From the IMG/VR virus record IMGVR_UViG_3300034062_005007, positions 1 through 20,635 of that record: 20,635 nucleotides of DNA; one strand, 5' to 3'. The notes beneath the pieces were generated by a model. The model was not told where the DNA came from. It did no database searches and saw nothing but the letters and a program-made list of their open reading frames with translations. The number at the start of each line of letters is the position of its first letter. Position 1 is the first letter of the stretch. This document shows positions 472 to 19,193 of this stretch, piece by piece. This stretch comes from a virus. The translations under genes and the position numbers were made by a program.

Positions 472-764
472 CTACAAAATTTTACACAATTGAATGAGGA
501 TGAATAATAAAATCCAGTTCCATTATTTGATGCGAAATTAAATCCTGGTGTGCTGGCATCAACACATTGATAAAAATAATACGTTGTTCCATTGTTTGAA
601 GATACATGATTATATCTGGTTGATTGTCCCCATAAAATAAAATCATTGGCTGAGAGATAATAATATCTGGAACCATTATTTGCTTGTAAATCGATACCTA
701 TTTGACTAAGAACTCCGCAAGATATCGGAAAATAGAAAGTTCCATTATTATCGGTTATTGCCAC
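468..764 (-). CDS. Unrecognised small protein with four Asn-Asn-Gly repeats
   Basis: This 98-residue protein is not one I recognise. It has four copies of Asn-Asn-Gly-Thr/Ser followed by aromatic residues (NNG at residues 6, 29, 57 and 80; for example NNGTTYYFY), spaced 23, 28 and 23 residues apart. It is rich in Tyr, Phe, Ser and Cys, with no signal peptide or membrane segment. Repeat codons differ synonymously (AATAATGGAACT, AATAATGGTTCC, AACAATGGAACA), which suggests selection on protein. The GTG start is chosen because a TTAAATA element lies on the minus strand 5 bases upstream, the same geometry as the phage's late genes. It points against the portal and neck genes on either side and overlaps the portal stop. 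A small beta-rich virion or appendage protein is a guess; function is unknown. Confidence 0.6.
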   Translation of the reverse strand: MAITDNNGTFYFPISCGVLSQIGIDLQANNGSRYYYLSANDFILWGQSTRYNHVSSNNGTTYYFYQCVDASTPGFNFASNNGTGFYYSSSFNCVKFCS

Positions 765-769
765 AATAT

Positions 770-776
770 TATTTAA
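770..776 (-). promoter_or_regulatory. Late-promoter-like element of the 468-764 gene
   Basis: TTAAATA on the minus strand, 5 bases before the GTG start at 764. It matches the element found upstream of the plus-strand late genes and is divergent from the element at 790-796. Confidence 0.55.
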
Positions 777-789
777 TTAAAGCAATAGA

Positions 790-796
790 TTAAATA
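790..796 (+). promoter_or_regulatory. Late-promoter-like element of the neck gene
   Basis: TTAAATA 5 bases before ATG 802. It resembles the T4 late promoter TATAAATA and lies 13 bases from the divergent minus-strand element. Confidence 0.6.
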
Positions 797-801
797 CATT
801 T

Positions 802-1944
802 ATGTCTCAATTGTGCCAAATAAGTCCGATATCAGCATTCATGTCAACGAATTTAAATTCAAAGATAGAATGTTTTCAGCAATTGGGAGAGCGTATCATG
901 AGAATGTTGGGACATCCAATTATAAATGTAGAAATTCATCCTGATCAATTATATGATTCTATTTCAATGGCAGTTGAGTTTTTTACAAAGTATGCTGGTT
1001 ACACTCAAGAATATTTGATATTTGATAGTAATTTATACGAATCAAACAAAGGTATAAGGCTTGATCATTTATTTACAGTTGCAAATACTGGATTTACATT
1101 GAGTCAAAAATTACAACAACCAAATAGATCAAATCCAGATTTTACTGTTGATATTCCAGAAGCATTGTATGTATCATTATCTTCAATTCCACAATCTTAT
1201 TTTTCAGCGAGTAGTGCATTGAGTTCTGCAGTTGCATCAGATGGAATTTACGAAATGCAAATAATTAACTCTGAAATATATAATCAATTTATATCATACA
1301 ATCCTCAGCTGAGTGCGCATTTTAAAATGTCTCCTCAAAGAAAGATATCTTCTCAATGTCAAAACATAGAAAATGCAACTCAATACAATAACATGTTTGA
1401 TTATGATGTGATGGATTATAGAAAAGTAATGTCTGTTACTGATTTTGAAGAAGGAAGCAATCAAGGTATAAATACATTATTCACCTTAGAACAAACACTT
1501 GCACAACAAACATATTTTAGTTATGCTATGGGTAATTATGGTTTTGATTTACTTTCATGGCATACTATGAAAGATTGGATTGAAACAAGAGAAAAGCTTT
1601 TAGCAATTCGTAGAGATATACATTTTGATGCAAGAACACAATATCTAAAATTCTATCCGCAACCAAAAAATACAAGATTCTATGGTGTAATTTCTTGTTA
1701 TGTTGAAAGACCAATAAGAGACATAATCAAAGAAAAATGGGTATTGGAATACAGTGTAGCATTAGCTAAAGTAATGTGGGGAAGAATCCTTACAAAAATA
1801 ACAGGAGTTTCATTACTTGGTGGTGGAAATTTCAACGGTGATACTATTCTCGCAGAAGGTATCAGAGAAAAAGAAGCATTGGAAACAATGTTGGTCGAAG
1901 GTGGATACGGAGATTTTGCACCTGTCTCGCTACTAGTTGGATAA
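802..1944 (+). CDS. gp13: Neck protein, T4 gp13-like
   Basis: This 380-residue protein is probably the head-tail connector (neck) that binds under the portal after DNA packaging. The N-terminal part has a helix-rich motif near residues 35-60 (GHPIINVEIHPDQLYDSISM followed by AVEFF), typical of gp13-like proteins. The C-terminal part reads W-G-R-I-L-T-K-I-x-G-V-x-L-L-G-G-G-x-x-N-G and ends L-L-V-G, matching the family's 'WG.nL.K..gv.LpGG..lNG ... (F/L)(L/I)VG' ending. T4 gp13 is about 309 residues, so this copy is longer. ATG 802 is preferred over the internal Met at codon 14 because TTAAATA lies 5 bases upstream. The head-completion gene follows after one base, so the two are likely co-transcribed. 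Confidence 0.7.
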   Translation: MSQLCQISPISAFMSTNLNSKIECFQQLGERIMRMLGHPIINVEIHPDQLYDSISMAVEFFTKYAGYTQEYLIFDSNLYESNKGIRLDHLFTVANTGFTLSQKLQQPNRSNPDFTVDIPEALYVSLSSIPQSYFSASSALSSAVASDGIYEMQIINSEIYNQFISYNPQLSAHFKMSPQRKISSQCQNIENATQYNNMFDYDVMDYRKVMSVTDFEEGSNQGINTLFTLEQTLAQQTYFSYAMGNYGFDLLSWHTMKDWIETREKLLAIRRDIHFDARTQYLKFYPQPKNTRFYGVISCYVERPIRDIIKEKWVLEYSVALAKVMWGRILTKITGVSLLGGGNFNGDTILAEGIREKEALETMLVEGGYGDFAPVSLLVG

Positions 1945-1945
1945 T

Positions 1946-2398
1946 ATGCTTCCTTTAAAAAGAGACAAAAGATTCCGTCAAGGAATTTACAAACCAAAAA
2001 ATCCTAAAAAATTTATTGGAACTACTGCAATTTATCGTAGTGGTTTAGAATGTAAGTTTTTTATGTTTTGTGACAATAATAGTAATGTTATAAAATGGGG
2101 AAGTGAAAATATAATAATACCTTACGTTTCAAAAATTGATGGAAAGTGGCACAAGTATTATGTGGATAATTATGTTGAAATAATGGAAGGAACTAAATTA
2201 GTGAAATATTTAGTGGAAATAAAACCACACAAACAGACTTTAAAACCAGAAGCGAAGCAGGGAAAACGAAAAAGTAGTTTGCTGTATGAACAAACACAAT
2301 GGATCATAAATCACGAAGGTAAATGGCCAGCAGCTAGAAAATTTTGTGAAAGTAAAGGATGGAAGTTCCTTATTTTAACAGAGAAGGAATTGAATTAA
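1946..2398 (+). CDS. gp4: Head completion protein, T4 gp4-like nuclease fold
   Basis: This 150-residue protein matches the T4 gp4 (head completion) family in length and motif order: YKPKNPKKFIGTTAIYRSGLE, K-F-x-x-F-C-D, a Trp-x-Ser-E-N-x-x-I-P-Y strand, a D-G-K-W-H-x-Y-Y-x-D segment, V-E-I-K-P-H-K-Q-T, and a C-terminal W...A..FC...GW.F.ILTEKEL. The order E ... D ... E-I-K is the arrangement of a PD-(D/E)XK-type nuclease. In T4, gp4 acts after packaging to make the filled head competent for tail joining. The in-frame TTG at 1937 would overlap the neck gene; ATG 1946, one base after the upstream stop (TAATATG), is the better start. It has no promoter element of its own. Confidence 0.85.
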   Translation: MLPLKRDKRFRQGIYKPKNPKKFIGTTAIYRSGLECKFFMFCDNNSNVIKWGSENIIIPYVSKIDGKWHKYYVDNYVEIMEGTKLVKYLVEIKPHKQTLKPEAKQGKRKSSLLYEQTQWIINHEGKWPAARKFCESKGWKFLILTEKELN

Positions 2399-2408
2399 AA
2401 ATTCTTTT

Positions 2409-2416
2409 AATAAATA
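2409..2416 (+). promoter_or_regulatory. Late-promoter-like element of the coiled-coil fibre gene
   Basis: AATAAATA 6 bases before ATG 2423, in a 24-base intergenic gap. Confidence 0.5.
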
Positions 2417-2422
2417 AGATAA

Positions 2423-4411
2423 ATGAGGATTTTTACGGAAAATGTCAATTTTATCTCCACATCGGGGGATAAAAATATTCTTCAAATAGAAAATTATGAA
2501 GAAGTATTTTTTGATGTTTATGAAATATCAATAAATGGTAAAAAATTCATTTCTGAAAAAATAGGAGAATATGAAAAAAAACCTATTGTAAAAATACCCG
2601 TGGAAATCGACGGGATTAAAAAAGAATACCCATTTATATTAAACGAAGGTAAATTTCAAATAGTGTTCAATGAACAAAATGAATTGATTCAAGAATCTGT
2701 AGAAGAAAATATTCCAGCGATAACTGAAGAATTTGATGAGGTTGAAGAATATTCCAAAGAATCGTTTGAAAAAGAACTCATAGATATTCAAGAAAAGAAA
2801 AATAAAATTCTGGAATATATAGAAAATGTTAAAAAAACTGCAAAACAGCAAACTGATGAATATAATAAAAACCAGTTAAAAATTCTAGAACAGCAAAAAG
2901 AAGAAAATAAAAAAGAATTAAAATCTTTATTGGAATCTTCTAAGCAATCATGGTTTGAAGAATTTGTCGATGTATCAGATAAAATTAAAAAAGAATTATT
3001 TGATAGATTGAATATTAATAATTCTGAAATTTATGAATCAATTGATTTGAAATTAGAAATCATTTCTGATGATTTTAAGAAATTAATTGAAGAAGATTTT
3101 TCAAATACCGAAAAAATATTTGAAAATAAAATAAAAGAATTAATAACAGAAATTTATAATAATCAGGTTATCAAAGTCATCAACGATGGTATTGATAAAA
3201 TTTCACAACAATCAGAAGTTTCTTTTGAAAATATAAAAAATGATTTTGATTTGGCTCTTTCTGAAAAAGCAACCAGCGTTGATTTAAAAAATGTCGAAGA
3301 TAAGTTAGAAACTGAAATTTTATCAGTACAAAAAGAATCAATTGAATTACACGATTTAATTTCAAAAAGCGTATCATCAAATAAAAAATCAATAACATAT
3401 ATTGAAAATAAAATTGATGAAACTCAAAAAGAATTAAAAGAGAACATCATAAAAATAATTGATGAAAAGATCGAAGAAAACGAAGATAGCATAACAACAT
3501 ATTACAATGAAAAACTTGACGTTGTTGAAAATAAACTTATAGATCTTTCAGACGAAAACAGACAGTATTTCATTGGATTGATAAACGAAAGCAGAGATAA
3601 TCTCTTAAAAGAAATCAAATCCATTAAAGAAAATAAAGCAATAGAATATATTGTTGAAAATAAAAAAACTGGGGAAAAGAAAGAAATTGATATTAATTCA
3701 ATAAAAAGCGATCTCCAGAAAGAAATATCAAATAAAATCTCAAATGAGATAATCTCTCTTAGAAAATATACAGCATATCATGGCGGCGGTGGAGGTACTG
3801 TAGCTCAACAATTTGCAGATGGTGGAACCATGAACGGATCATTGAATATCAATGGTCAAATATTAAGTGGTGGTGTTGATATAGCTACATTATTTACAAT
3901 TGGGGGAACTTCAAATTTCGCAACTTATGATTTTGTAAATAATAATTTTTTAAATTTATCAGGAGGTATAATTACTGGAAGTACACGCTTCAACAGTAAT
4001 GTAACAATTTACGGTAATCTTACCGCTACTGGCACTACAACATTTAACAATACGATATTCTCTGTTACAAGTGCATTAAGTGTTGTTCATATAGGTGAGG
4101 GTCCAGCAGTGTGGGTAGGTAATAGCGGCCTTGGTGATATAGCTTCTTTCAATGATATAGATACAGGGCTTGAAGTATTACACGTTGGCGGTAGTAACGG
4201 CGCATTCCCCAATGTCGGCGTAAAGACTAGTACACCTAATGTTGATTTTACGGTTAATGGTCAAATTAGCGCTTCCAATACAATTTGGAGTTCTGGTGGT
4301 AATTCTAATAACTGGAATAGTACTTATAGTATGGTAAACGCTTTAAGTGCTACATGGAGTTTAGGTCCTGATGACTCAAATACAATTATAGGTCTTTCAA
4401 TCTTTTTATAA
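2423..4411 (+). CDS. Long coiled-coil tail/virion fibre protein
   Basis: This 662-residue protein has three visible parts. Residues 1 to about 90 form a compact domain (includes IDGIKKEYPFILNEGKFQIVF) of a kind I associate with large environmental phage structural proteins. Residues about 95-445 are extremely Glu/Lys/Ile/Asn-rich with heptad-like spacing and very few Gly or Pro, so a long coiled coil. From about residue 450 a Gly tract (YHGGGGG) leads into a Gly/Ser/Thr/Asn-rich beta-structured shaft, with fibre-like phrases such as VTIYGNLTATGTTTF and VGVKTSTPNVDFTVNGQISA. The C-terminus (NSNNWNSTYS...SATWS) ends abruptly. A trimeric fibre anchored by its N-terminus is the likely form. Receptor binding is not shown, and whether it sits on the head, neck or tail cannot be told. 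Confidence 0.65.
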   Translation: MRIFTENVNFISTSGDKNILQIENYEEVFFDVYEISINGKKFISEKIGEYEKKPIVKIPVEIDGIKKEYPFILNEGKFQIVFNEQNELIQESVEENIPAITEEFDEVEEYSKESFEKELIDIQEKKNKILEYIENVKKTAKQQTDEYNKNQLKILEQQKEENKKELKSLLESSKQSWFEEFVDVSDKIKKELFDRLNINNSEIYESIDLKLEIISDDFKKLIEEDFSNTEKIFENKIKELITEIYNNQVIKVINDGIDKISQQSEVSFENIKNDFDLALSEKATSVDLKNVEDKLETEILSVQKESIELHDLISKSVSSNKKSITYIENKIDETQKELKENIIKIIDEKIEENEDSITTYYNEKLDVVENKLIDLSDENRQYFIGLINESRDNLLKEIKSIKENKAIEYIVENKKTGEKKEIDINSIKSDLQKEISNKISNEIISLRKYTAYHGGGGGTVAQQFADGGTMNGSLNINGQILSGGVDIATLFTIGGTSNFATYDFVNNNFLNLSGGIITGSTRFNSNVTIYGNLTATGTTTFNNTIFSVTSALSVVHIGEGPAVWVGNSGLGDIASFNDIDTGLEVLHVGGSNGAFPNVGVKTSTPNVDFTVNGQISASNTIWSSGGNSNNWNSTYSMVNALSATWSLGPDDSNTIIGLSIFL

Positions 4412-4415
4412 AAAA

Positions 4416-4423
4416 AATAAATA
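4416..4423 (+). promoter_or_regulatory. Late-promoter-like element of the 4429-4794 gene
   Basis: AATAAATA 5 bases before ATG 4429, after an A-rich run that begins directly at the fibre stop codon. Confidence 0.45.
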
Positions 4424-4428
4424 AAATC

Positions 4429-4794
4429 ATGGCAACATATACAAAGCAATTATTATCACAAAGCACAAATGGCAAGTCTATTGTTATAGCTGCCAGTGGT
4501 GCTAACACTACAACAATACACACAACACAAGCATCATCAAGTGTAGTTGATGAGGTGTGGTTATACGCCACAAACTCTACAACATCAGATATAATGTTTA
4601 ATTTATTATATGGAGGTACAGATTTTTCAACTGATATTTTATTTGAAGGTGTTATTGAGGCTTATGCTGGAAATACATTAATCTGCCCTGGTTTAATTTT
4701 ACAAGGAGATGGAACTACGGGATCTTCTATATATGGAAATGCTAGTGTATTGAGTGGCATTAATGTTTTTGGCTATGTAAATAGGATAAGTTAA
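4429..4794 (+). CDS. Small virion-like protein between fibre genes
   Basis: This 121-residue protein is Ser/Thr/Gly/Ile-rich with alternating hydrophobic strands (for example SIVIAASGANTTTIHTT, VWLYATNSTTSDIMF). It has no charged helices, signal peptide or Cys motif, so a small all-beta domain is likely. The family is not one I can name. Its place between a coiled-coil fibre and an LRR adhesin, under the same type of late promoter, points to a virion component such as a fibre accessory or decoration protein. That role is inferred from context only. The next gene starts one base after its stop, in the same TAATATG junction used between the neck and head-completion genes. Confidence 0.55.
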   Translation: MATYTKQLLSQSTNGKSIVIAASGANTTTIHTTQASSSVVDEVWLYATNSTTSDIMFNLLYGGTDFSTDILFEGVIEAYAGNTLICPGLILQGDGTTGSSIYGNASVLSGINVFGYVNRIS

Positions 4795-4795
4795 T

Positions 4796-7465
4796 ATGAG
4801 TATTCGTTACGGAAATAAAGTTGGACCGTTAGTCTCACGTAAGTCTTCTTTTTTTAAAAAGGATAGATTTGATCGACTGCGTATAAAACAACCAACAGCA
4901 GCAGCAACTCCAGCCACACCGTCTCCATGGGTTCGTCCTGCTGATTGGTTGACAATGCCGACTATAATATCTTCAGAGCAAAAAATAGCTTTGTTGATGC
5001 CAGTGTTTCCGCAACAATCTAACTTTCTCGCTTTTACAATATCTGGAGCATATACAGTTGATTGGGGTGATGGTGTAACAGAAAATGTTGCATCTGGTGT
5101 TAAAGCTCAACATGAATACTCTTATACCGACCCAGATTTAAATGCCACCGTTGCAAGTGATGGTTATAAAATGGCAGTTGTAGTCATTACTCCTCAAGCT
5201 GGTCAAAATATAACAAGTGTAAACTTTAACCAAAAGTATGCACAAGCAGGATCTACATTTCCCGATTCATCTCCTATATTAGAAATAGCTTTATCTTGCC
5301 CAAGTTTAACAGGTTTAACTCTTGGTAATACAACCGCTTCTTTGGCTTTTTGTAAAAATTTAGTTAGTTTCACTGGAGTCAATATAGGATTATTAACTGA
5401 CTTATCTAGTTCATTTGCAAATTTAGTTTCATTAAAAAATGTATCTTTTAATGATCTTACTAATATTACTAATATGAGTAGTATGTTTCGGAGTTGCTCT
5501 TCTCTTACAACAGTACCGCTTTTTAATACAGAGAATGTTATTAATATGACTAGTATGTTTCAGAGTTGCACTGCTCTTACAAGCGTACCTCTGTTTAATA
5601 CATCAGCTGTTACTAGTATGAGTGGTATGTTTAGTAGTTGCACTGCTCTTACAAGCGTACCTCTGTTTAATACATCAGCTGTTACTAGTATGAGTAGTAT
5701 GTTTAATGGCTGCACTACTCTTACAACTGTACCGCTTTTTAATACAGGGGCCGTTACTAATATGGGTAGTATGTTTAATAGTTGTACTACTCTTACAACT
5801 GTACCGCTTTTTAATACAGGGGCCGTTACTAATATGGGTAGTATGTTTGCCTCTTGTTCCCGTCTTCAGACTGTACCATTATTTAACACGCAAAATGTTA
5901 CTACTATGGGAGGTGCTTTTCCACCAAATGGAATGTTTTCTGGCTGTAGATCACTTATAACTGTACCACTATTCAATACAGTAGCTGTTACTGATATGGG
6001 TGGTATGTTTTTTAGTTGCTTTTCTCTTACAAGTGTACCGCTTTTTAATACAGTAGCTGTTACTAGGATGTCTTTTATGTTTGCTAGTTGTTCCTCACTT
6101 ACAAGTGTACCACTATTCAATACAGCAGCTGTACAATTCATAAATAATATGTTTGCTAGTTGTTCCTCACTTACAACTGTACCACTATTCAATACAGCAG
6201 CTGTTACTAATATGAATAGTATGTTTAATAGTTGCACTACTCTTACAACCGTACCGTTATTCAATACATCAGCTGCTACTGATATGGGTAGTATGTTTTC
6301 TAGTTGCACTACTCTTACAACCGTACCGTTATTCAATACAGTAGCTGTTACTAGTATGAGTGGTATGTTTAGTAGTTGCACTGCTCTTACAAGCGTACCG
6401 TTATTCAATACAGTAGCTGTTACTAGTATGAGTAGTATGTTTAGTAGTTGCACTGCTCTTACAAGCGTACCTCTGTTTAATACATCAGCCGTACAATTGA
6501 TGAATAGTATGTTTAGTGGTTGCTCTTCTCTTACAAGTGTACCGTTATTCAATACAGCAGCTGTTACTAATATGAATAGTATGTTTTCTAATTGCACTAC
6601 TCTTACAAGTGTACCTCTGTTTAATACAGCAGCTGTTATTGATATGTCTAGTATGTTTAATGGTTGTACTTCTCTTACAACTGTACCACTGTTTAATACA
6701 GCAGCTGTTACTAGTATGAGTAATATGTTTAACGGTTGTACTTCTCTTACAACTGTACCGTTATTAATTTCAGGTGCTGGAACAAATACAGGAAAGTTTG
6801 GTGGTATTTTTGCAAGTTGTATATCACTTACAAGAGCAGCATTGAATGGTTCTGAATATTCAATAAGTTATAGTGGTTGTAAATTATCAAAAGAAGAATT
6901 AGAATCTATATTCAATTATCTAGACACAATAGGTGCTGCTTCTCAAACAATAACAGTATCAAATAATTGGGGAGCGCCGACACCTGTAACTCTTACAGGA
7001 ACTACAACTGTTGGTAGCACAACAATAAGCATGGCAAACACCACTGGTATTGCTGTAGGTATGCAAATTACAGGAACAGGATCACCTCTTACATCAACTA
7101 GAGCAGTAACATTTACCGATGCAGGTGATTTAGTCAACCTTGCAAGTCATGGATTAAGTAATGGAGATGAAGTTTCTTTTGCAACTAGAGTAACAACGAC
7201 TGGTATTGTTATTAATACGATTTATTATGTAGTTAATGCTACGGCAGGTACATTTCAAGTAGCAGCAACTCTAGGTGGTCCAGCATTAGCATTAACGACA
7301 AACGGTTCTGGAACCTTACGCTATCGTACACAGGTTGTATCAATTAACCCCAACGTAAGCATCACAGTATCACGACAAATGGCTGCGGGGGGTGCAAATA
7401 GTTTAACATTTAGACAATTAAGAACTGGAACAGCCCTATTAAAAGGCTGGGCAGTAACAGCATAA
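4796..7465 (+). CDS. Giant adhesin/fibre protein with 18 BspA-type (DUF285) leucine-rich repeats
   Basis: 889 residues. Residues about 60-135 form a PKD-like beta domain with the signature VDWGDG (D89-G93). Residues 226-663 are 18 tandem units of 24 residues (unit 7 has 30), consensus about (N/S)MxSMFxxCxxLTxVPLFNTxAVT. This is the BspA-like LRR pattern (DUF285) of bacterial and protist surface proteins, known from adhesins. Residues about 760-850 are a Gly/Thr-rich domain with HGLSNGDEV and YYVVNATAGTFQV, a module I recall from phage fibres, followed by a short tail. A receptor-binding or surface-adhesion role is inferred. There is no signal peptide, as expected for a virion protein. Start ATG 4796 lies one base after the previous stop; AGGA about 9 bases upstream may act as a weak ribosome site. 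Confidence 0.75.
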   Translation: MSIRYGNKVGPLVSRKSSFFKKDRFDRLRIKQPTAAATPATPSPWVRPADWLTMPTIISSEQKIALLMPVFPQQSNFLAFTISGAYTVDWGDGVTENVASGVKAQHEYSYTDPDLNATVASDGYKMAVVVITPQAGQNITSVNFNQKYAQAGSTFPDSSPILEIALSCPSLTGLTLGNTTASLAFCKNLVSFTGVNIGLLTDLSSSFANLVSLKNVSFNDLTNITNMSSMFRSCSSLTTVPLFNTENVINMTSMFQSCTALTSVPLFNTSAVTSMSGMFSSCTALTSVPLFNTSAVTSMSSMFNGCTTLTTVPLFNTGAVTNMGSMFNSCTTLTTVPLFNTGAVTNMGSMFASCSRLQTVPLFNTQNVTTMGGAFPPNGMFSGCRSLITVPLFNTVAVTDMGGMFFSCFSLTSVPLFNTVAVTRMSFMFASCSSLTSVPLFNTAAVQFINNMFASCSSLTTVPLFNTAAVTNMNSMFNSCTTLTTVPLFNTSAATDMGSMFSSCTTLTTVPLFNTVAVTSMSGMFSSCTALTSVPLFNTVAVTSMSSMFSSCTALTSVPLFNTSAVQLMNSMFSGCSSLTSVPLFNTAAVTNMNSMFSNCTTLTSVPLFNTAAVIDMSSMFNGCTSLTTVPLFNTAAVTSMSNMFNGCTSLTTVPLLISGAGTNTGKFGGIFASCISLTRAALNGSEYSISYSGCKLSKEELESIFNYLDTIGAASQTITVSNNWGAPTPVTLTGTTTVGSTTISMANTTGIAVGMQITGTGSPLTSTRAVTFTDAGDLVNLASHGLSNGDEVSFATRVTTTGIVINTIYYVVNATAGTFQVAATLGGPALALTTNGSGTLRYRTQVVSINPNVSITVSRQMAAGGANSLTFRQLRTGTALLKGWAVTA
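5471..6784 (+). repeat. Tandem 72-bp repeats coding LRR units (18 copies)
   Basis: Eighteen in-frame units, 72 bp each except unit 7 (5903-5992, 90 bp, inserting FPPNGM). Adjacent units are nearly identical in places: stretches starting near 5564 and 5636 match for about 60 bases, as do stretches near 5712 and 5784. That suggests recent tandem duplication or conversion rather than old divergence. Confidence 0.9.
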
Positions 7466-7469
7466 TTTT

Positions 7470-7661
7470 ATGACATCAGGATTTTACAAAAAAGATAATG
7501 AGGAACTTTTCTATGCTCCAAACATAGTAGAAGGAAATGGGTTTGTGTTAGTAGCTCAAGACAAAGATCAATATGAATATCCAGTAGATGGATGGTATTG
7601 GTTTGATAGTGAAGATGAAGCAGAAGAGGTTTTCAATATTTTTAATGAAAACAAAGTGTAA
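7470..7661 (+). CDS. Small acidic protein following the adhesin
   Basis: This 63-residue acidic protein begins MTSGFYKKDNEELFYAPNIV and contains YPVDGWYWFDSEDEAEEVF. Small proteins of this pattern (short N-terminal GFY..., central YEYP.DGWYWF) recur next to fibre genes in tailed phages as far as I recall, but I cannot name a function. It starts 4 bases after the adhesin stop with no promoter element of its own, so it is probably translated from the adhesin transcript. A fibre-assembly helper or a capping subunit would fit the location; neither is shown by sequence. Confidence 0.6.
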   Translation: MTSGFYKKDNEELFYAPNIVEGNGFVLVAQDKDQYEYPVDGWYWFDSEDEAEEVFNIFNENKV

Positions 7662-7704
7662 ATTAATAAAGATATTAATAATATTAGATTTTTTATAATA
7701 AAAA

Positions 7705-7712
7705 GATAAATA
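7705..7712 (+). promoter_or_regulatory. Late-promoter-like element of the prohead protease gene
   Basis: GATAAATA 6 bases before ATG 7719, at the end of a 57-base AT-rich gap that holds nothing else I can identify. Confidence 0.6.
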
Positions 7713-7718
7713 ATTTAT

Positions 7719-8384
7719 ATGTTAAAATTAAGATTGATTGCGGAGAACCCAGACCTCTTAGAAAGATTTGAAATTGTTGAAGAACAAGACAATTTAAAAA
7801 AAGGCAGCTCTTTATATGTAAAAGGTCCATTCATAGGATGTAATCAAGTTAATAAAAATCGTCGCATGTATAATTTAGATGAAACACGCGAAGAAGTTAA
7901 TCGTTATATCAGTGAAATGGTAACTCCTGGCAGAGCTATGGGAGAACTCAATCATCCATCAAGTGCTGAAGTTAATCTTGAAAGAGCATGTCATTTAGTC
8001 ACTGAACTTTATGAAAGCGACAATGCTTTTTTCGGCAAAGCTAAAGTTTTATCTACACCAATGGGTCAAATTTTAAGAGCATTGATAAATGATGGTGTTA
8101 AAGTTGGAATGTCCACAAGAGCATTGGGATCATTGCAAGAAGAATCATCATACAATCTTGTAAAAAACATGAAGCTCGTAGCTATTGATGCAGTAGCAGA
8201 TCCATCATTTCCAAAAGCATTTGTTAATGGTATTTTAGAATCAAAACAATGGGTAGTTTCTGATAATGGCAAGTATGAAGAAATTTATGAAAATTTTGAA
8301 AAATCAATAGGTAAATTACCTAAACATGATATGGGTTCTTATCTTAAAGATCAAATTTTAAAATTTATTAATTCACTTAGTTAA
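7719..8384 (+). CDS. gp21: Prohead core protease, T4 gp21-like
   Basis: This 221-residue protein (T4 gp21 is about 212) is the serine protease that cleaves scaffold and capsid proteins inside the prohead during maturation. The fold markers are visible: SLYVKGPFIGCNQVNKNRRMY near residues 31-51, the catalytic-His motif GELNHP (His79), and the nucleophile motif VGMSTRALG (Ser132). These match the herpesvirus-assemblin-like His/Ser arrangement of this protease family. A C-terminal extension after about residue 185 (KYEEIYENFEKSIGKL...) is helical and may be removed by self-cleavage, as in T4. It heads the capsid cassette of protease, core-like protein, scaffold and major capsid protein. The next gene's promoter element overlaps its stop codon. 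Confidence 0.9.
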   Translation: MLKLRLIAENPDLLERFEIVEEQDNLKKGSSLYVKGPFIGCNQVNKNRRMYNLDETREEVNRYISEMVTPGRAMGELNHPSSAEVNLERACHLVTELYESDNAFFGKAKVLSTPMGQILRALINDGVKVGMSTRALGSLQEESSYNLVKNMKLVAIDAVADPSFPKAFVNGILESKQWVVSDNGKYEEIYENFEKSIGKLPKHDMGSYLKDQILKFINSLS

Positions 8385-8387
8385 ATA
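8381..8387 (+). promoter_or_regulatory. Late-promoter-like element of the basic core-like gene
   Basis: TTAAATA 5 bases before ATG 8393, overlapping the protease stop codon (TAA 8382-8384). Confidence 0.55.
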
Positions 8388-8392
8388 CTGTT

Positions 8393-8878
8393 ATGCCATT
8401 AAAAAAAGGATCATCAGATAAAACAATTTCCGCTAATATAGCAACGGAAATGAAATCTTATAAAAAGACTGGAAAGATCGGAACATCTAAACCAAAGTCA
8501 GACAAAGCTGCTCAAAAGCAAGCAGTTGCTATTGCATACTCCAAAGCTGGTAAAAGCAAAAAGAAAAAAGAAAAACCAGAAGAAGATGCTGAATCCGTTG
8601 TCAAGCAAATGAAAAAAAATAACGGAAAGATGTCATTTAAAGGTCCAAAAACAAAAGAACGTAAACATTCTGCACCTCCTGTTAAAGTACATAAAACCAA
8701 GAAAGGTAAAGGATCTTACAACAGAAATCAAGAATTGCACGAAAATAATGACATTACTGCATTTATTAATTGTATTTTTGAAAAAAATTACAACGCTGCG
8801 AATAAATATTTAACAGACGTTCTTAATTCAAAGATACAACAACGTATTGAGAATGAACTATCAACTCCCTTATTCTAA
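8393..8878 (+). CDS. Basic prohead-core-like protein (possible gp67/gp68 counterpart)
   Basis: 161 residues in two parts. Residues 1 to about 115 are strongly basic (Lys-rich) and begin MPLKKGSSDKTISANIATEM followed by KQAVAIAYSKAGKSKKKK, a pattern seen in small phage proteins of the DUF6496-like type. Residues about 116-161 (ENNDITAFINCIFEKNYNAA, then LTDVLNSKIQQRIENEL) resemble the C-terminal helix of T4-like prohead core proteins, where an 'f...l..Ki...i..el' segment precedes the end. Position between protease and scaffold equals that of the small core proteins 67/68 in the T4 order, shifted past gp21. A Lys-rich internal head protein that neutralises DNA or is trapped in the core is the inference. 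The two-part make-up may be a fusion. Confidence 0.55.
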   Translation: MPLKKGSSDKTISANIATEMKSYKKTGKIGTSKPKSDKAAQKQAVAIAYSKAGKSKKKKEKPEEDAESVVKQMKKNNGKMSFKGPKTKERKHSAPPVKVHKTKKGKGSYNRNQELHENNDITAFINCIFEKNYNAANKYLTDVLNSKIQQRIENELSTPLF

Positions 8879-8881
8879 TTT

Positions 8882-9757
8882 ATGAAAATAACAGATCTAT
8901 TAAACGAAGAAGTCGTAAGCGTAATCGGTGAAGAATCACTAGTTGCAATTCAAGAAGCTTTTGAAAAGAAAGTTGAATTAACAACCGAAGCAGCGCTTAT
9001 ATCACAAGACGAAGTTTATGCTGAAAAACTTGATCAACTTATTCAAGCAATTGATAAAGATCATAGTACAAAGATGAAGAGAGTTGTAGAAGCTGTTGAT
9101 GCTGACAGAACTCAAAAACTTCTTAAAGTTGTCAACAAATACGAAAGAGCGTTGAACGAAGATTCAGCTACTTTCAAAAAGCAAATGGTAGGTGCAGTTA
9201 GTGCATATCTTGATGAGTTTTTAGAAGAATCAATTTCAAAAGAAGATTTAGCAACTGCTGTTAAAAACAAAAGCGCATATAATGTTTTAGAAAAACTTCG
9301 CGGTGTTTTAGCTGTTGATTCAGTATTAATGAAAGAGTCTGTTCAAGAAGCTGTTCTTGACGGCAAGACTCAAATTGATAATCTTCAATCTGAAAATTCA
9401 GAATTGAAAAAGCAACTTTCATCATTGCAAGAAAGCTTCAACAATATTAGAGTCAATGCTTTAATTGAAGAGAAAATTTCCAATATGGAAACTGAGAAAA
9501 AGTCTTTCATAAGAAAGACTCTCAAAGACAAATCATTCGATTTCGTTAATGAAAATTTTGATTATGTTTCTCGTCTTTTTGATAAAAAAGAAAAAGAAAA
9601 AATCAAATCAATCACCGAAGAAGCAAAACAAAAGAAAATGGATGTAGATTTCATTCCAGAATATCAGAAAGTTGTTTCAGAAAGTGTAAATAATACAACC
9701 GATGATTCATACAACAGCTATGTTGAAGAATTATCAAAAGTTTTCGGTAAGAGATAA
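8882..9757 (+). CDS. gp22: Prohead scaffold protein, T4 gp22-like
   Basis: 291 residues (T4 gp22 is about 269), almost wholly helical and charged, without Cys and with only one Pro. It starts MKITDLLNEEVVSVIGEESL and carries repeated D-x-D-x-x-x-K-x-x-x-V-V segments around residues 58-90 (DKDHSTKMKRVVEAVDADRT), typical of T4-like scaffolds. The scaffold forms the inner core on which gp23 assembles and is then degraded by gp21. A site fitting the gp21 rule (Ile/Leu-x-Glu before Ala/Gly/Ser) is at I23-Q24-E25|A26, identical to the one in the capsid protein. Other candidates are weaker. The start lies 3 bases after the upstream stop and no promoter element precedes it, so it is co-transcribed with the basic protein. 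Confidence 0.85.
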   Translation: MKITDLLNEEVVSVIGEESLVAIQEAFEKKVELTTEAALISQDEVYAEKLDQLIQAIDKDHSTKMKRVVEAVDADRTQKLLKVVNKYERALNEDSATFKKQMVGAVSAYLDEFLEESISKEDLATAVKNKSAYNVLEKLRGVLAVDSVLMKESVQEAVLDGKTQIDNLQSENSELKKQLSSLQESFNNIRVNALIEEKISNMETEKKSFIRKTLKDKSFDFVNENFDYVSRLFDKKEKEKIKSITEEAKQKKMDVDFIPEYQKVVSESVNNTTDDSYNSYVEELSKVFGKR

Positions 9758-9775
9758 TTTTCACCAAGAACCATG

Positions 9776-9789
9776 AGGTCTTATGACCT
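9776..9789 (+). other. Short hairpin in the major capsid leader
   Basis: AGGTC-TTAT-GACCT forms a 5-bp stem with a 4-base loop, 32 bases before the capsid start, without a U-run. It may be a processing or stabilising element upstream of the capsid message; chance is possible. Confidence 0.3.
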
Positions 9790-9807
9790 GAATATAGAAA
9801 CAGAAAA

Positions 9808-9815
9808 TATACGTA
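9808..9815 (+). promoter_or_regulatory. Degenerate late-promoter-like element of the major capsid gene
   Basis: TATACGTA matches TATAAATA at 6 of 8 positions and ends 6 bases before ATG 9822, the same spacing as the clean elements elsewhere. It is supported mainly by position. Confidence 0.35.
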
Positions 9816-9821
9816 AAACAT

Positions 9822-11273: not shown

Positions 11274-11284
11274 TGTGAACTGAC

Positions 11285-11300
11285 TGAAGTAAGTACTTCA
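11285..11300 (+). other. Small hairpin after the capsid gene
   Basis: TGAAGT-AAGT-ACTTCA, a 6-bp stem with a 4-base loop, 12 bases before the capsid terminator. It has no U-run; it may stabilise the 3' end of the capsid message. Confidence 0.3.
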
Positions 11301-11311
11301 AAAAGTCTATC

Positions 11312-11349
11312 AAACCATGGGGGCCGAAGACCCCATGGTTTCTTTTTAT
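11312..11349 (+). terminator. Strong intrinsic terminator after gp23
   Basis: A perfect 11-bp stem (11312-11322 with 11331-11341, AAACCATGGGG/CCCCATGGTTT) has an 8-base loop and is followed by CTTTTTAT. It separates the capsid gene from the downstream endonuclease. Confidence 0.9.
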
Positions 11350-11360
11350 ATATTTAATAA

Positions 11361-11390
11361 TTGACAATATATTTGGATGTAATATAAATA
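11361..11390 (+). promoter_or_regulatory. Combined sigma70-like and late promoter of the homing endonuclease
   Basis: TTGACA (11361-11366), 16 bases, then TATAAATA (11383-11390), ending 5 bases before ATG 11396. This is the only exact T4 late octamer among the elements here, and the -35-like box could also allow early transcription. Confidence 0.55.
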
Positions 11391-11395
11391 ATTAT

Positions 11396-12946
11396 ATGGA
11401 TATAAAAACTATCATTCAAAAAGAATCTGATGAAAAGTACAATGGATCTTTTAGATTTTTCAAAGAACAAAACTTAAAAAAGTTGGTAAGTGAAAAGGGA
11501 TTTAAATATATCAAATCTAAAATTTCTGAAGATTTACATTTTCCTATATCTTTAATGGTATATTGTTTTGTGAATGACATATACAAACATCCCACATGTG
11601 TCTGCGGAAATAAACAAAAATTCAACACTGCTAAAAAAGAATTTTCAAAATATTGTTCTAATAAATGTAGATATGAAAATTTTTCAGATATTATATCTGT
11701 TAGACAGCAAACAAATTTAAAAAAGTACGGATCTACTAATGTATTAGCCAGTGAATATGGTAAGAAAAAAATATTAGAAACTAACTTATCAAAATACGGT
11801 GTTTCTAATTACACAAAAACTAAAGAATTTAAAGAAAAAGTTAAAGGTAAAAGTAATTTAACTTCCGATGGTAAGAAAATGTTAATTGAAAAAATAAAAA
11901 GAAAACATTACGATTCCATTTTTACAAAGTATACAAATTTTATTCCATTGTTTAAATTTGAAGAATATGATGGAGTAAAAGGATATAAAAAATATCCATG
12001 GTTTTGTAAAACATGTAACTCTAATTTTATATCATCTTTTGATAATGGTTGTGCTCCTATATGTGATAATTGCAAACCTAAAGGAACAGATTTAGAAATA
12101 TTCATTAAGAAGTTTTTGGATAAATATAAAATTGAATATATATTCAGATATAGAAAATTAGAATCTGGAAGAGAAATTGATTTTTACATACCTTCTAAGA
12201 ATTTAGGAATAGAAACCAGCGGATTATATTGGCATTCAACTGCAAATAAAACATATTCAAAAAATGATCATATTTCTAAATTAGAAGAATGTGAACATCA
12301 AGGAATAAATTTAATAAATATTTTCGCTGATGAAATTTATAACAAACCTAAAATTGTAATTAATAGATTAAAAAGTAAATTAAGTCTTGTAAAAAGAAAA
12401 ATACCAGCCAGAAAATGTCAAGTTGGAAAAATTAGTAATATTCAATGTGAACATTTTTTAAAAAAATATCACATACAAGGAAGTATCAAAACAAATATTA
12501 AATATGGCTTGTTTTATAAAACTCGTTTAGTTGCAGTTATGACATTTAACAAAGGAAGATTAGCAACTGGTAACAAATCAATAAATGGAATTTTTGAGCT
12601 TGGTAGATATGCAACAATAGCCAATTTTAATATTGTTGGAGGTGCTGGTAAATTATTATCTTTTTTCAAAAATCAACACAGTCCAGAAAAAATTTATTCA
12701 TATGCAGATAGAAGATGGAGCAATGGTAATCTTTATAAAAAATTGAATTTTAAATTAGATAAAGCAACTATTCCTAATTACTGGTATGTGAAAGATTTCA
12801 AAAACAGACTACATAGATTAAAATTTCAAAAAAATAATTTAAAACATTTTTTAAATTATGATGAACAAAAAACTGAAGAAATGATAATGAAAGAGTCTAA
12901 ATTTTATAAAATATGGGATTGTGGATCTTTATTATTCATCTTATAA
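11396..12946 (+). CDS. Free-standing homing endonuclease, Vsr-like nuclease with C-terminal GNAT-like domain
   Basis: 516 residues. Order: a zinc-finger-like segment (C68, C70, C87, C91); two 'KYG' DNA-binding-type repeats (LKKYGSTNV at 108-116, LSKYGVSNY at 131-139) common in phage mobile nucleases; a second finger (C204-x2-C207 and C223-x2-C226); then a Vsr-like, EDxHD-type nuclease core (E234, REIDFYIP with D262, GIETSGLYWH with E273 and H280, KNDHI with D291/H292). Residues about 350-480 contain ELGRYA, VGGAGKLL and SYADRRWSNGNLYKKLNF, which resemble a GNAT acyltransferase fold. Such proteins cut homologous phage DNA lacking the gene and spread by repair. It sits between a terminator and a virion gene, so no essential gene is interrupted. 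The nuclease call is firm as a class; exact residues are inferred. Confidence 0.75.
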   Translation: MDIKTIIQKESDEKYNGSFRFFKEQNLKKLVSEKGFKYIKSKISEDLHFPISLMVYCFVNDIYKHPTCVCGNKQKFNTAKKEFSKYCSNKCRYENFSDIISVRQQTNLKKYGSTNVLASEYGKKKILETNLSKYGVSNYTKTKEFKEKVKGKSNLTSDGKKMLIEKIKRKHYDSIFTKYTNFIPLFKFEEYDGVKGYKKYPWFCKTCNSNFISSFDNGCAPICDNCKPKGTDLEIFIKKFLDKYKIEYIFRYRKLESGREIDFYIPSKNLGIETSGLYWHSTANKTYSKNDHISKLEECEHQGINLINIFADEIYNKPKIVINRLKSKLSLVKRKIPARKCQVGKISNIQCEHFLKKYHIQGSIKTNIKYGLFYKTRLVAVMTFNKGRLATGNKSINGIFELGRYATIANFNIVGGAGKLLSFFKNQHSPEKIYSYADRRWSNGNLYKKLNFKLDKATIPNYWYVKDFKNRLHRLKFQKNNLKHFLNYDEQKTEEMIMKESKFYKIWDCGSLLFIL

Positions 12947-12968
12947 TATAAAAATTAAAAACAAATAA

Positions 12969-12975
12969 CTAAATA
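12969..12975 (+). promoter_or_regulatory. Late-promoter-like element of the 12981-13358 gene
   Basis: CTAAATA 5 bases before ATG 12981, in a 34-base gap after the endonuclease. Confidence 0.55.
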
Positions 12976-12980
12976 ATATT

Positions 12981-13358
12981 ATGGCTAGTTATACATTCGA
13001 CACGCAAATTTTATCAGCATCACAAGTGGGTATTGGAAATCCAATAGCTCCCGCCGATTCCTTTCCATTAACAGCGGTTGGTGTTGGAATCCTTGCTCTT
13101 TCTTCTACTCACCAAGGGCTCGCTTTTAACTCTCTTCCATTAAGTGCTCAAGTTGTTAGAACTACTGTCAGAGGCAGCGTTTTCAATATAAACAGCGCTT
13201 ATCATAATAAGCCCATGGCTTTGATTGAATTTGATAATACTTATACCGTATTCACTTTCAATTCATCAGCTCCAACATCGCAAGTTCTTTTACTTTCTGG
13301 AACCAGAGATGTATCAACACCAGAGCATAGAAGAAAGTGGGTTTTGGGATATTATTAA
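12981..13358 (+). CDS. Small virion-like protein of unknown function
   Basis: This 125-residue protein has no recognisable family. It is rich in Ser, Thr, Ala, Val and Leu with many beta-prone stretches (VRTTVRGSVFNINSA, YTVFTFNSSAPTSQVLLLSG) and ends RRKWVLGYY. There is no Cys, signal peptide or membrane segment. It has its own late-type promoter element and its own terminator, forming a single-gene unit between the endonuclease and the baseplate spike genes. A small structural or decoration protein is plausible from context and composition. Loose similarity in length and style to the protein at 4429-4794 is noted but is not evidence of homology. Confidence 0.55.
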   Translation: MASYTFDTQILSASQVGIGNPIAPADSFPLTAVGVGILALSSTHQGLAFNSLPLSAQVVRTTVRGSVFNINSAYHNKPMALIEFDNTYTVFTFNSSAPTSQVLLLSGTRDVSTPEHRRKWVLGYY

Positions 13359-13385
13359 TACAATAAACATTCAAATTTAAATATT

Positions 13386-13414
13386 AAACGCCAGATTAAT
13401 TTCTGGTGTTTTTT
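13386..13414 (+). terminator. Intrinsic terminator before the spike genes
   Basis: A 10-bp stem (13386-13395 with 13402-13411, one G-T pair) has the loop TTAATT and is followed by T's to 13414. It closes the unit at 12981-13358. Confidence 0.8.
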
Positions 13415-13423
13415 ATTATATAG

Positions 13424-13430
13424 TTAAATA
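13424..13430 (+). promoter_or_regulatory. Late-promoter-like element of the spike OB-fold gene
   Basis: TTAAATA 7 bases before ATG 13438, just after the preceding terminator. Confidence 0.55.
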
Positions 13431-13437
13431 ATAATAC

Positions 13438-14157
13438 ATGTTTATCGGAGGTTCAGGAAGCGGTAATGAATTTAGTAAAAACGATCAAGGTTTTTATAGA
13501 GGAATTGTTGTTAAAAACAACGATCCCCTTCGTTTAAATAGAATTAAAATTTACATTTCCGAATTATCAAACCAGCCTTTCGAAGAGTGGTTTGATTCAT
13601 ATGATGAAATTGAAGTAAAAACACCTGGTGAAAATAATACAGATGACAAATGGTCAGATGTTAATATTTTTGAAGAAATATCAAAAAACATTCCATGGGC
13701 TGAACCTTGTTATCCAATTATAGGAGAAAGTGGAAACAGTAGATATTATAAAGATGGTAAAATAGTAACCATATCTGATTGTAATTATCTTGAAGGATTT
13801 GAAGTTATAAATGATGAGCCTCCATCTTTAGAAAAAGGATCATTTGCGCCATCATTTATATATGAAAATGGCGGTACATATATTGGAGATGCTTTTTCTA
13901 ATCCAACTGCTAATTTTTCAGCACAATGCAATCCTTATAGTTTTTTATATAAACCATCATCACACACAAACAAAGCAAAGGGCGTTTTTGGTATTCCAGA
14001 AGTAGGTTCTAAAGTTTGGGTATTCCATTGGCAAGGAGATTTCAATTTCCCTGTTTATTTTGGAACTATGAAAGATTATAGAGAACTCACATTAATCAAT
14101 GATACTGATAATACAACAAAAATGAGCCCATCATATCCTGTTGATTTTGAAAATTAA
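13438..14157 (+). CDS. gp5: Baseplate hub OB-fold protein, gp5 N-terminal-like
   Basis: 239 residues. The N-terminus reads FYRGIVVKNNDPLRLNRIKI, the first strands of the gp5/VgrG OB-fold, in which 'G.V.nNdDP.k.gRvkv' is typical. The middle has IPWAEPCYP, and the C-terminal part has FGIPEVGSKVWVFHWQGDFN followed by PVYFGTM, the usual 'P.vGs.VwV.F..GD...PVy.G' end of the fold. In T4, gp5 makes the membrane-piercing spike with an OB domain, a lysozyme domain and a trimeric beta-helix. This protein stops after the OB domain; about 60 residues between the strands (around 95-165) are an insertion. The beta-helix part appears to be the next gene, and no lysozyme motif is visible in either. Confidence 0.7.
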   Translation: MFIGGSGSGNEFSKNDQGFYRGIVVKNNDPLRLNRIKIYISELSNQPFEEWFDSYDEIEVKTPGENNTDDKWSDVNIFEEISKNIPWAEPCYPIIGESGNSRYYKDGKIVTISDCNYLEGFEVINDEPPSLEKGSFAPSFIYENGGTYIGDAFSNPTANFSAQCNPYSFLYKPSSHTNKAKGVFGIPEVGSKVWVFHWQGDFNFPVYFGTMKDYRELTLINDTDNTTKMSPSYPVDFEN

Positions 14158-14160
14158 ACC

Positions 14161-14167
14161 TTAAATA
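14161..14167 (+). promoter_or_regulatory. Late-promoter-like element of the spike beta-helix gene
   Basis: TTAAATA 6 bases before GTG 14174, overlapping nothing, within the 16-base gap. Its spacing is the main support for the GTG start. Confidence 0.5.
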
Positions 14168-14173
14168 ATTCAA

Positions 14174-15769
14174 GTGTCTTTAAGATATAAAAATAGAACA
14201 ATTATAAATCAAAGGGGGGGTTCGATAGATATTGATAACTCTACCGAAAAAGAAAAAATACAAATCTCTCATAGAAGCGGAAGTAATTTAAATTTTACAA
14301 ATATAGTTACAAGCGAATTAGCTTCTAATAATAAACAATTAATTGTAATAAACGATAATTATAAAACTGTAGGTGGTACAGATTCAGAATATGTAGTAAA
14401 AGACAAAATAGAAAGAGTTGGAGAAAATTCATATTCATTTAAAGGAACTTATGGAGATTCAGAAATAGACGCATTTAAACAATGGAAAGCTGCATATAAA
14501 ACAATAGCAAATGCTAATTCCAGATTTAAAATTAATAGAGGCGGCGCAAGCTTTCCAAACGGTCCAACTACACCAACAAGTGGAACTAGATCTTCAAATC
14601 CAACATTAAATCAAACTATCGTTCCAGTTGAAAATAATTTCGGAGGATACATTAAAACACCTATTAGAAATGCATCAACAGATGAAGTTGTTGATTATGT
14701 TCCTATGCCATATAGGGACACAGAACCAGCAACTCCGAAAGATGTAACCACATCTGATGTCGATTTGGCTGCGGGTGTTAATGGATCTGCTGCTCCTGGT
14801 GTTTTAGAATTTGGATCTTCTAATTCAGCAGCTACCGAAGACGGATCTTGGACACCCAACACGCAGTCTACTAATATTGGAAACTCTATAAAAAATTTAC
14901 AAGATAGTGCTTTAAACGCTATAGAAGCACAAATGGGAAATGGTGGTGATGATATTTCATTCGTTAAAAGAAATAAATCAGATACCGTTGGTGCTATTTT
15001 CAATGATTATCCATCTATAAGAATAGATACCAAAGGAAGAAGTCAACCAATAGAAGTTGTAGTATCAGCATCAGGCGCTTTCAAAAATCACGATTATGTA
15101 CCAATTGTTGAAGATATTGATAATTCTTCAACATTTCCGTGTGGAAATGAAAATAAAACAGTGGGAAATAAATATAATTTAAATGTAGGATCGGGAGGAA
15201 TTAATTTAAAATCCACGGGCTCTATTGAATTAGGAGGTAGTAATTTAAAAATGGGATTCCAAAAAGTTAATATAAGTGCTCTTCATGGTATACACTTACA
15301 TTCAGAAAGCGTTGTTGAATTAGTATCATTAAAATCTATATCTTTAAGAACAAACAGACAGGTTTATATAGAAAGTTCATTAGGTGTTAAAAATAATACA
15401 ATAATTGGTGGAGGTCTTTATACAGAAGGTGAAGTTTATCTACATCATATAACTGCACCAATCGAAATTCAACAAACTTTAGATACTACATTGTACGGTA
15501 GATTCAATTGCACAGCCCCAAGAACACTTCCAATCGGTGAAGTATTTGATCCAGAATGGGGATGGTTAACTGTTTATGCATTGGCTGATGATAATTTGAT
15601 TATAAATTATCCACACAGTCATCATTTCCCAAATCTTCCTTTGAGATTAACAAGTTCAAATTCAGATGTTCGTAAATTTGCAGCTAATGAGAGAATAAAC
15701 ACACACGGTGCTTTTTCTACAGCATTAGCTCAAAAACACGAAAGAAGAAGGGCTGAAGTTGCTCCTTAA
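14174..15769 (+). CDS. Baseplate spike beta-helix protein, gp5 C-terminal-like
   Basis: 531 residues from a GTG start. Residues about 10-95 have short alternating strands (IDIDNSTEKEKIQISHRSGS, IERVGENSYSFKG) like the beta-prism part of gp5/VgrG spikes. Residues about 115-290 are Asn/Ser/Thr/Pro-rich linker. Residues about 330-415 return to a beta-helix pattern (LNVGSGGINLKSTGSIELGG, ISLRTNRQVYIESS). Near the C-terminus H481-S-H483-H484 gives an HxH motif, of the sort that binds iron at the tip of other phage spikes. It directly follows the OB-fold gene, so the two probably form one spike. A G7 run at 14214-14220 near the start is a slippage or sequencing-error risk. The link to gp5 is inferred from pattern and order. 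Confidence 0.6.
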   Translation: MSLRYKNRTIINQRGGSIDIDNSTEKEKIQISHRSGSNLNFTNIVTSELASNNKQLIVINDNYKTVGGTDSEYVVKDKIERVGENSYSFKGTYGDSEIDAFKQWKAAYKTIANANSRFKINRGGASFPNGPTTPTSGTRSSNPTLNQTIVPVENNFGGYIKTPIRNASTDEVVDYVPMPYRDTEPATPKDVTTSDVDLAAGVNGSAAPGVLEFGSSNSAATEDGSWTPNTQSTNIGNSIKNLQDSALNAIEAQMGNGGDDISFVKRNKSDTVGAIFNDYPSIRIDTKGRSQPIEVVVSASGAFKNHDYVPIVEDIDNSSTFPCGNENKTVGNKYNLNVGSGGINLKSTGSIELGGSNLKMGFQKVNISALHGIHLHSESVVELVSLKSISLRTNRQVYIESSLGVKNNTIIGGGLYTEGEVYLHHITAPIEIQQTLDTTLYGRFNCTAPRTLPIGEVFDPEWGWLTVYALADDNLIINYPHSHHFPNLPLRLTSSNSDVRKFAANERINTHGAFSTALAQKHERRRAEVAP

Positions 15770-19186: not shown

Positions 19187-19193
19187 TTAAATA
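19187..19193 (+). promoter_or_regulatory. Late-promoter-like element upstream of the 19203 gene
   Basis: TTAAATA ending 9 bases before ATG 19203, a little further than at other genes, so the call is weaker. Confidence 0.35.

Follow-up and report, generated by a model that had tools for sequence, protein, structure and literature searches.

Introduction

Late transcription in bacteriophage T4 is the textbook case of a promoter that stands apart from the ribosome-binding site. We describe an apparent departure from this arrangement in an uncultivated virus contig, the IMG/VR record IMGVR_UViG_3300034062_005007, whose entire length of 20,635 bases forms the window of this analysis. In the window and in its relatives, an element with the core TAAATA lies about 5 bases ahead of many start codons. 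This element is probably a late promoter fixed to the start codon, so placed that late mRNAs begin at the start codon itself, without a leader.

The late promoters of T4 comprise an 8-bp TATA box with no -35 element, work with gp55 and serve virion genes, according to the available text of a review (PMC2988020), and in these respects the promoters of the present lineage resemble them. The resemblance in box and in kind of genes extends to the cyanophages, represented here by Syn19; the cyanophage late promoter is given as NATAAATA in the accessible part of its source (PMC2984593). The difference lies in distance. For comparison we used stretches of 23–50 kb from T4 (NC_000866), RM378, HTVC008M, RHph_I34, F368 and phiYS40, and about 135 of the 175 kb of Syn19. 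In the T4 stretch TAAATA lies 9–39 bases upstream, with a peak at 27–28 and 0 of 47 open reading frames (ORFs) carrying it at 4–8 bases, unlike the roughly 5 bases seen here; a Shine-Dalgarno core precedes 27 of the same 47 ORFs. Most copies in Syn19 are 20–39 bases upstream, and only 2/169 ORFs have one at 4–8 bases. Counts at 4–8 bases are similarly low in HTVC008M (2/46 ORFs), RM378 (1/41), RHph_I34 (0/46) and F368 (1/20); RM378 has an A/T-rich string ahead of six ORFs, but no TAAATA peak.

Leaderless messages are not new in principle. Phage transcripts have been called often leaderless (PMC5312081), and the available portion of PMC4633059 refers to leaderless phage genes, for example in lambda and P2. 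Kasugamycin is reported to spare such transcripts (PMC5230787). The same portion describes the mycobacterial RTG rule, by which ATG and GTG work at +1 and TTG and CTG do not, a rule shown by RNA-seq, ribosome profiling and reporters and, unlike the present case, for host genes. In Deinococcus-Thermus a -10 box directly before the ORF yields a leaderless mRNA, as proposed here, but for cellular rather than phage late genes (PMC12340547, excerpted text). One precedent is Thermus phage phiYS40: the accessible part of a review (PMC3594737) reports that most of its middle and late transcripts are leaderless, with IF2 raised and IF3 lowered, and names no gp55-type late system. In the first 50 kb of phiYS40 we found TANNNT 6 bases ahead of 9/58 starts, against 0–4 at other distances, a -10-like peak that resembles the lineage's, but no TAAATA peak. 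The present lineage appears to have put a T4-type late system to the same use. We met no report of start-codon-fused late promoters in T4-like phages among the papers listed in the literature searched, whose coverage mostly excluded subscription journals.

Results

The original prediction had placed late-promoter elements 5, 5, 6, 5, 6, 5, 5, 5, 7 and 6 bases before the genes at 764(-), 802, 2423, 4429, 7719, 8393, 11396, 12981, 13438 and 14174, and every one of these spacings proved exact. All ten elements share the core TAAATA. On the minus strand it occupies 770–775, ahead of the GTG of 764(-), and is kept in 5/5 orthologs; the other nine lie on the plus strand. Those ahead of ATG 802, a gp13-like head-tail adaptor (791–796), and ATG 2423 (2411–2416) are kept in 30/38 and 9/9 orthologs, and the core at 4418–4423, ahead of ATG 4429, in the sole ortholog found. 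Ahead of ATG 7719, the gp21 prohead protease, the core (7707–7712) recurs in 61/62 orthologs, and ahead of ATG 8393 (8382–8387) in 6/6. The core at 11385–11390 sits inside TATAAATA (11383–11390), upstream of ATG 11396, a homing endonuclease, and is kept in 5/6 orthologs. The remaining three precede ATG 12981 (12970–12975; 13/13 orthologs), ATG 13438 (13425–13430; 12/26) and GTG 14174 (14162–14167; 6/13). For these counts the start could be any NTG lying up to 15 codons from the expected position, and matches that started past query residue 25 or had fewer than 30 bases upstream were dropped.

Chance does not account for this spacing. Of the window's 19 starts, 10 have a TAAATA ending 5–7 bases upstream, an arrangement that we call phased; when the start coordinates were shifted circularly 5000 times, the number averaged 0.061 and never exceeded 2, and the other ATGs of the window had none (0/397 on the plus strand, 0/348 on the minus strand). 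Circular shifts and other ATGs served as chance controls; the reversed hexamer, which overlaps the real motif, was discarded.

The phage is T4-like by its head and neck genes. PHROG matches identify a gp13-type head-tail adaptor (802), a gp4-type head closure protein (1946), a gp21-type prohead protease (7719) and a gp23-type major head protein (9822); beyond the homing endonuclease at 11396 come a ClpP-like protease, NrdA and NrdB on the opposite strand. Cyanophages gave the best of the listed isolate matches to the capsid protein, at about 34% identity, and closer capsid relatives are numerous in IMG/VR. The best 80 of these, at 57–100% identity, were kept, and with the window their loci form a lineage set of 946 ORFs, in which near-duplicate contigs are included and loci are not independent. 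We also analysed six larger records of 87–230 kb, G001 to G006, of which G001–G004 exceed 200 kb and G004 is a more distant relative; L082–L092 belong to G001, L110–L120 to G002, L121–L131 to G003 and L093–L097 to G005. ORFs came from a simple longest-ORF caller rather than a trained gene finder, so all counts are approximate.

Across the lineage set the distance from TAAATA to the start codon peaks sharply at 5 bases (229 ORFs), with 59 ORFs at 6, 33 at 7, 7–19 at each distance from 8 to 12, and 0–9 at each distance elsewhere up to 54 bases. Among related loci with five ORFs or more, 67 of 69 have the element at 4–8 bases, the exceptions being L035 and L078. Each of the six larger records has 28–63 ATG gene starts phased at 5–7 bases, against 7–23 phased among its 3366–8680 other ATGs. 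In ten records TAAATA-N5-ATG outnumbered the same pattern read backwards by 48 to 3, 47 to 5, 54 to 2, 27 to 13, 29 to 1, 34 to 2, 19 to 5, 10 to 1, 24 to 2 and 5 to 1. Distant contigs from metagenome-assembled genomes (MAGs) were mixed, with 3/25 ORFs at 7–8 bases and three more at 9 in L140, 3/23 at 6–7 in L141, 5/18 at 6–8 in L143 and 0/18 in L142.

The element also moves with the start codon. Where N-termini have gained or lost codons, it shifts along with the ATG, as among 61 gp21 orthologs with offsets from -2 to +2 codons. An alternative is that genome compaction has merely brought box and gene together, the polymerase starting slightly downstream of the annotated start codon, by a few bases, and ribosomes using a start codon farther in. 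Start choice can indeed vary by one or two bases, and a spacing of 4 is frequent in G004; against this, similarity between orthologous proteins begins right behind the phased start (gp21, gp13 and the product of 12981), and ATG and GTG are enriched exactly at the predicted +1, as described below. We regard compaction as highly improbable.

At the late starts of G002 and G003 conservation is confined to a stretch from -12 or -11 to -6, and positions -40 to -13 never exceed 0.25 bits. There, as in the window, the late starts have a TATAAATA-like -10 box and no -35 element, the arrangement that characterises T4-type late transcription.

The element is concentrated ahead of virion genes. Among identified core genes of the six records it precedes 33/53 virion genes and 6/65 others, the six being five phoH genes and one TTG start of gp46. 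Apart from its bearing on this count, phoH was the only identified non-virion core gene to carry the late element repeatedly (five of the six records: G002, G003, G004, G005 and G006). The original prediction held that the element partitions the late region into transcription units, and in the window this stands: the internal genes 1946, 4796, 7470 and 8882 have no phased element and follow the preceding stop after 1, 1, 4 and 3 bases, as it had said. Orthologs of the operon-internal gp22 and gp4 lack the element in 63/70 and 43/50 cases, while gp21 carries it in 61/62 and gp13 in 30/38.

This distribution speaks to an alternative in which TAAATA is a translation-initiation signal, an A/T-rich docking site for ribosomes that do without Shine-Dalgarno pairing, on transcripts that begin farther upstream. 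Such a signal would suit both the tie to the start codon and G001–G003, where no Shine-Dalgarno excess was found. It accords poorly with the operon-internal orthologs, most of which lack the element, and with the replication genes, nearly all of which lack it though they too need translation signals; moreover, TAAATA fits a known promoter box, and no further conserved motif lies within 40 bases in G002 and G003. Together with the second promoter class described below, these observations make a translation signal quite unlikely.

If the T4 geometry applies, the transcription start can be placed. The available text of the T4 review names an A(-13) variant of the 8-base box, and for Aeh1 a variant at -13/-12 (PMC2988020), so that the box should span -13 to -6. 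TAAATA would then cover -11 to -6, and with a 5-base spacer +1 would coincide with the start codon's first base. At the position TAAATA+N5 in the six records (n=273) the codon is ATG in 193 cases, GTG in 21, TTG in 1 and CTG in 0, even though the same regions contain more TTG than GTG (675 against 363). This pattern matches the mycobacterial RTG rule as set out in the accessible portion of PMC4633059. It also helps to judge whether late mRNAs might instead have short real leaders of about 3–10 nt, with the gp55 of this lineage starting elsewhere relative to the box than that of T4. The start distance used here is indeed carried over from T4; however, the near-absence of TTG is expected if the purine at +1 is a base of the start codon, and a start farther upstream would impose no such limit on the codon. 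We consider short leaders barely probable at all. The prediction that late mRNAs start at the start codon, give or take a base or two, is upheld as a prediction from a fixed T4-type late box.

A candidate sigma factor for reading such a box is encoded in the lineage. Homologs of gp55, which had been suggested as worth seeking elsewhere in the genome, are present in all four genomes above 200 kb, G001–G004, both by a Syn19 gp55 query (E 6e-11 to 5e-17) and by PHROG 234 (2e-23 to 2e-26). The G003 homolog shares 44–68% identity with the other three and 35% with Syn19 gp55. No gp55 was found among the scanned ORFs of the window, itself a 20.6-kb fragment. As a candidate for a further phage sigma factor serving non-late genes we considered sigma70_r2 matches and rejected them: those in G001–G004 fall within the gp55 homologs, a single weak one occurs in G006, G005 has none, and all matches are below the cut-off.

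Some of these phages look to have a second promoter type that is phased likewise, again with +1 at the A of the start codon. By matrix, a compact element without a conserved -35 was found at 74/330 genes in G001, 47/269 in G002, 43/287 in G003 and 35/148 in G005. Its sequences include TTAAAAACTAGAnTAnAAT in G001, TTAATTAAAACCGAACTATAAT in G002 and, among these four records, AAACACTAnnnTAnAAT. Its upstream half varies among phages and its TAnAAT half hardly at all; the usual order is element, 6 bases, ATG, and no gene of this class has a late element as well. In the other two records TANAAT at 6 bases precedes 24/235 non-late genes (G004) and 2/72 (G006).

The -10 box recognised with sigma70 lies at -12 to -7, so a 6-base spacer would set +1 on the A of the ATG. 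In the predicted leaderless cases of this class (n=148) position -1 is C or T throughout. Where the ATG lies 3 bases downstream (n=22, several of them near-identical), the promoter still has C or T at its -1 in 22/22 and A or G at its +1 in 22/22; cases at other offsets (n=19) are looser, with C or T at -1 in 12 and A or G at +1 in 15. Since the pyrimidine-purine initiator does not move when the ATG lies 3 bases on, the start point seems to be a property of the promoter and not of the ATG. A spacer of 6 with another sequence, and an initiator that stays with its promoter, are not what a ribosome-docking signal predicts; translation signals would hardly fall into two classes with unlike spacers, each in keeping with the geometry of its promoter. 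To call the second class early would go a step further, given that no identified replication gene shows the exact element, as judged by eye.

Taking both classes together under relaxed criteria in G001, G002, G003 and G005, a phased element precedes 105/248 genes whose upstream neighbour is on the opposite strand, and on the same strand 62/155 with a gap of at least 60 bases, 106/175 with 20–59 bases and 111/465 with fewer than 20. These last show that the partition into transcription units, which holds in the window, is not absolute in the lineage. Genes without a phased element include core replication genes, some with A-rich stretches upstream.

The original prediction had gone on to suggest that a leaderless mode replaces Shine-Dalgarno initiation for late genes specifically, and in that form the suggestion was not supported. 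Late genes of G001–G004 have a Shine-Dalgarno core in 0/43, 2/49, 3/63 and 4/53 cases, against 3, 0, 5 and 4 in a control stretch; in G001–G003 there is no excess over the control stretch in any gene class, and many non-late genes have a start-phased promoter. In G004 the core precedes 29/106 operon-internal genes, against 5 in the control. With no excess in three genomes and a mainly operon-internal one in the fourth, it is too simple to see leaderless starts as what late genes use in place of Shine-Dalgarno pairing.

The major capsid gene was treated in the original prediction as having a degenerate copy of the element 6 bases before 9822. We rejected this candidate: TAARTA occurs at 4–9 bases in just 2/79 orthologous major-capsid starts, and the site belongs to a conserved leader with a covarying hairpin. 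The gene is preceded by a conserved 64-base intergenic stretch (9758–9821), in which the hairpin AGGTC-TTAT-GACCT occupies 9776–9789 on the plus strand. Across 12 capsid leaders, chosen from the closer part of 83 upstream stretches, 54/54 cells are paired, 9 of them with changes on both sides. In some relatives two hairpins are apparent by eye. A search of the whole window against Rfam, at E values up to 1, gave no match, either to the hairpin or elsewhere.

Several further features deserve record. A possible eleventh core (19188–19193, plus strand) lies 9 bases ahead of ATG 19203(+), for which no ortholog was found, and an unphased TAAATA at 4778–4783 lies 12 bases ahead of the internal gene 4796; neither was in the original list. 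The gp21 gene ends at 8384, its stop codon forming the first three bases, TAA, of the next late core (8382–8384), and in the six records and the window 73/313 elements overlap the stop codon of the upstream gene in this manner. The gene at 4796–7465 encodes an 889-residue protein with six DUF285 repeat stretches and one relative, 77.7% identical, in L002. The 161-residue product of 8393–8878 has a sub-threshold match, perhaps by chance, to the ribosome-rescue factor ArfA (E 2e-4, 20.9 of 25.5 bits). In G004 a homolog of ribosomal protein bS21, above the Pfam cut-off, is encoded at G004:C1:39344-39463(-), with TAAATA 4 bases upstream of its own ATG. NrdA similarity was uninformative as to the host, the best isolates, at about 60–63%, including phages of Rhodobacter, Sinorhizobium, Ruegeria and Staphylococcus. 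The four MAG contig matches were all distant (Lachnospiraceae, Paludibacteraceae, Gammaproteobacteria and Rickettsiales) and indicated no single host.

Discussion

We think it very likely that these phages set T4-type late promoters with +1 on the start codon, or within one or two bases of it, so that late transcripts are leaderless and are read from promoters recognised by gp55. In the proposed mechanism, host RNA polymerase carrying the phage gp55 sigma factor would recognise TAAATA as the -10 box of a late promoter. Each such promoter would be positioned to start transcription on the start codon's first base or one or two bases from it; the transcripts would have leaders of 0–2 nt, and ribosomes would bind their 5′-terminal AUG or GUG. 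Genes inside operons would depend on other initiation. The fixed spacing and its conservation, the concentration at virion genes, the movement of the element with the start codon and the presence of gp55 are matters of observation; the exact transcription start, leaderless translation and the reading of the element by gp55 are probable on sequence grounds.

Several observations weigh against this account. The major capsid gene departs from the rule, a structured leader taking the place of the phased element. Carriage by virion genes is low in G004 (4/11) and G006 (2/6), and the spacing peak of G004 is broader, with 23 starts at 4 bases, 27 at 5 and 15 at 6. Orthologs of 13438 and 14174 lack the element in 14/26 and 7/13 cases, and the ClpP-like gene, which is not a virion gene, has it in 7/13 orthologs within the search tolerance. 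When the spacing is 6, a purine occupies the predicted +1 in only 30/48 cases, so the start may wander by a base. As for partner factors, a gp33-like protein had also been proposed as worth seeking, and a Syn19 gp33 query, run without a positive control, gave zero matches in the six records; a Syn19 gp45 query (blastp at 1e-4) gave zero in G001–G004.

A broader reading is possible, and we hold it only tentatively: that both promoter classes, the sigma70-like one with its 6-base spacer and the gp55-dependent late one with its 5-base spacer, are welded to the initiation codon, leaving a large share of transcription units leaderless and the major capsid gene exempt through its structured leader. 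Were this so, the phages would either take advantage of ribosomes in a state that favours leaderless mRNAs or bring that state about.

In this lineage promoter and translation start appear fused to about one base at 28–63 gene starts in each of the six larger records. If that is true, sequence alone would suffice to place both the start codons and the transcription starts in these uncultured phages, and gene calls that rely on Shine-Dalgarno motifs could be corrected. Whether leaderless translation is favoured by the host or by the phage would then become a testable matter.

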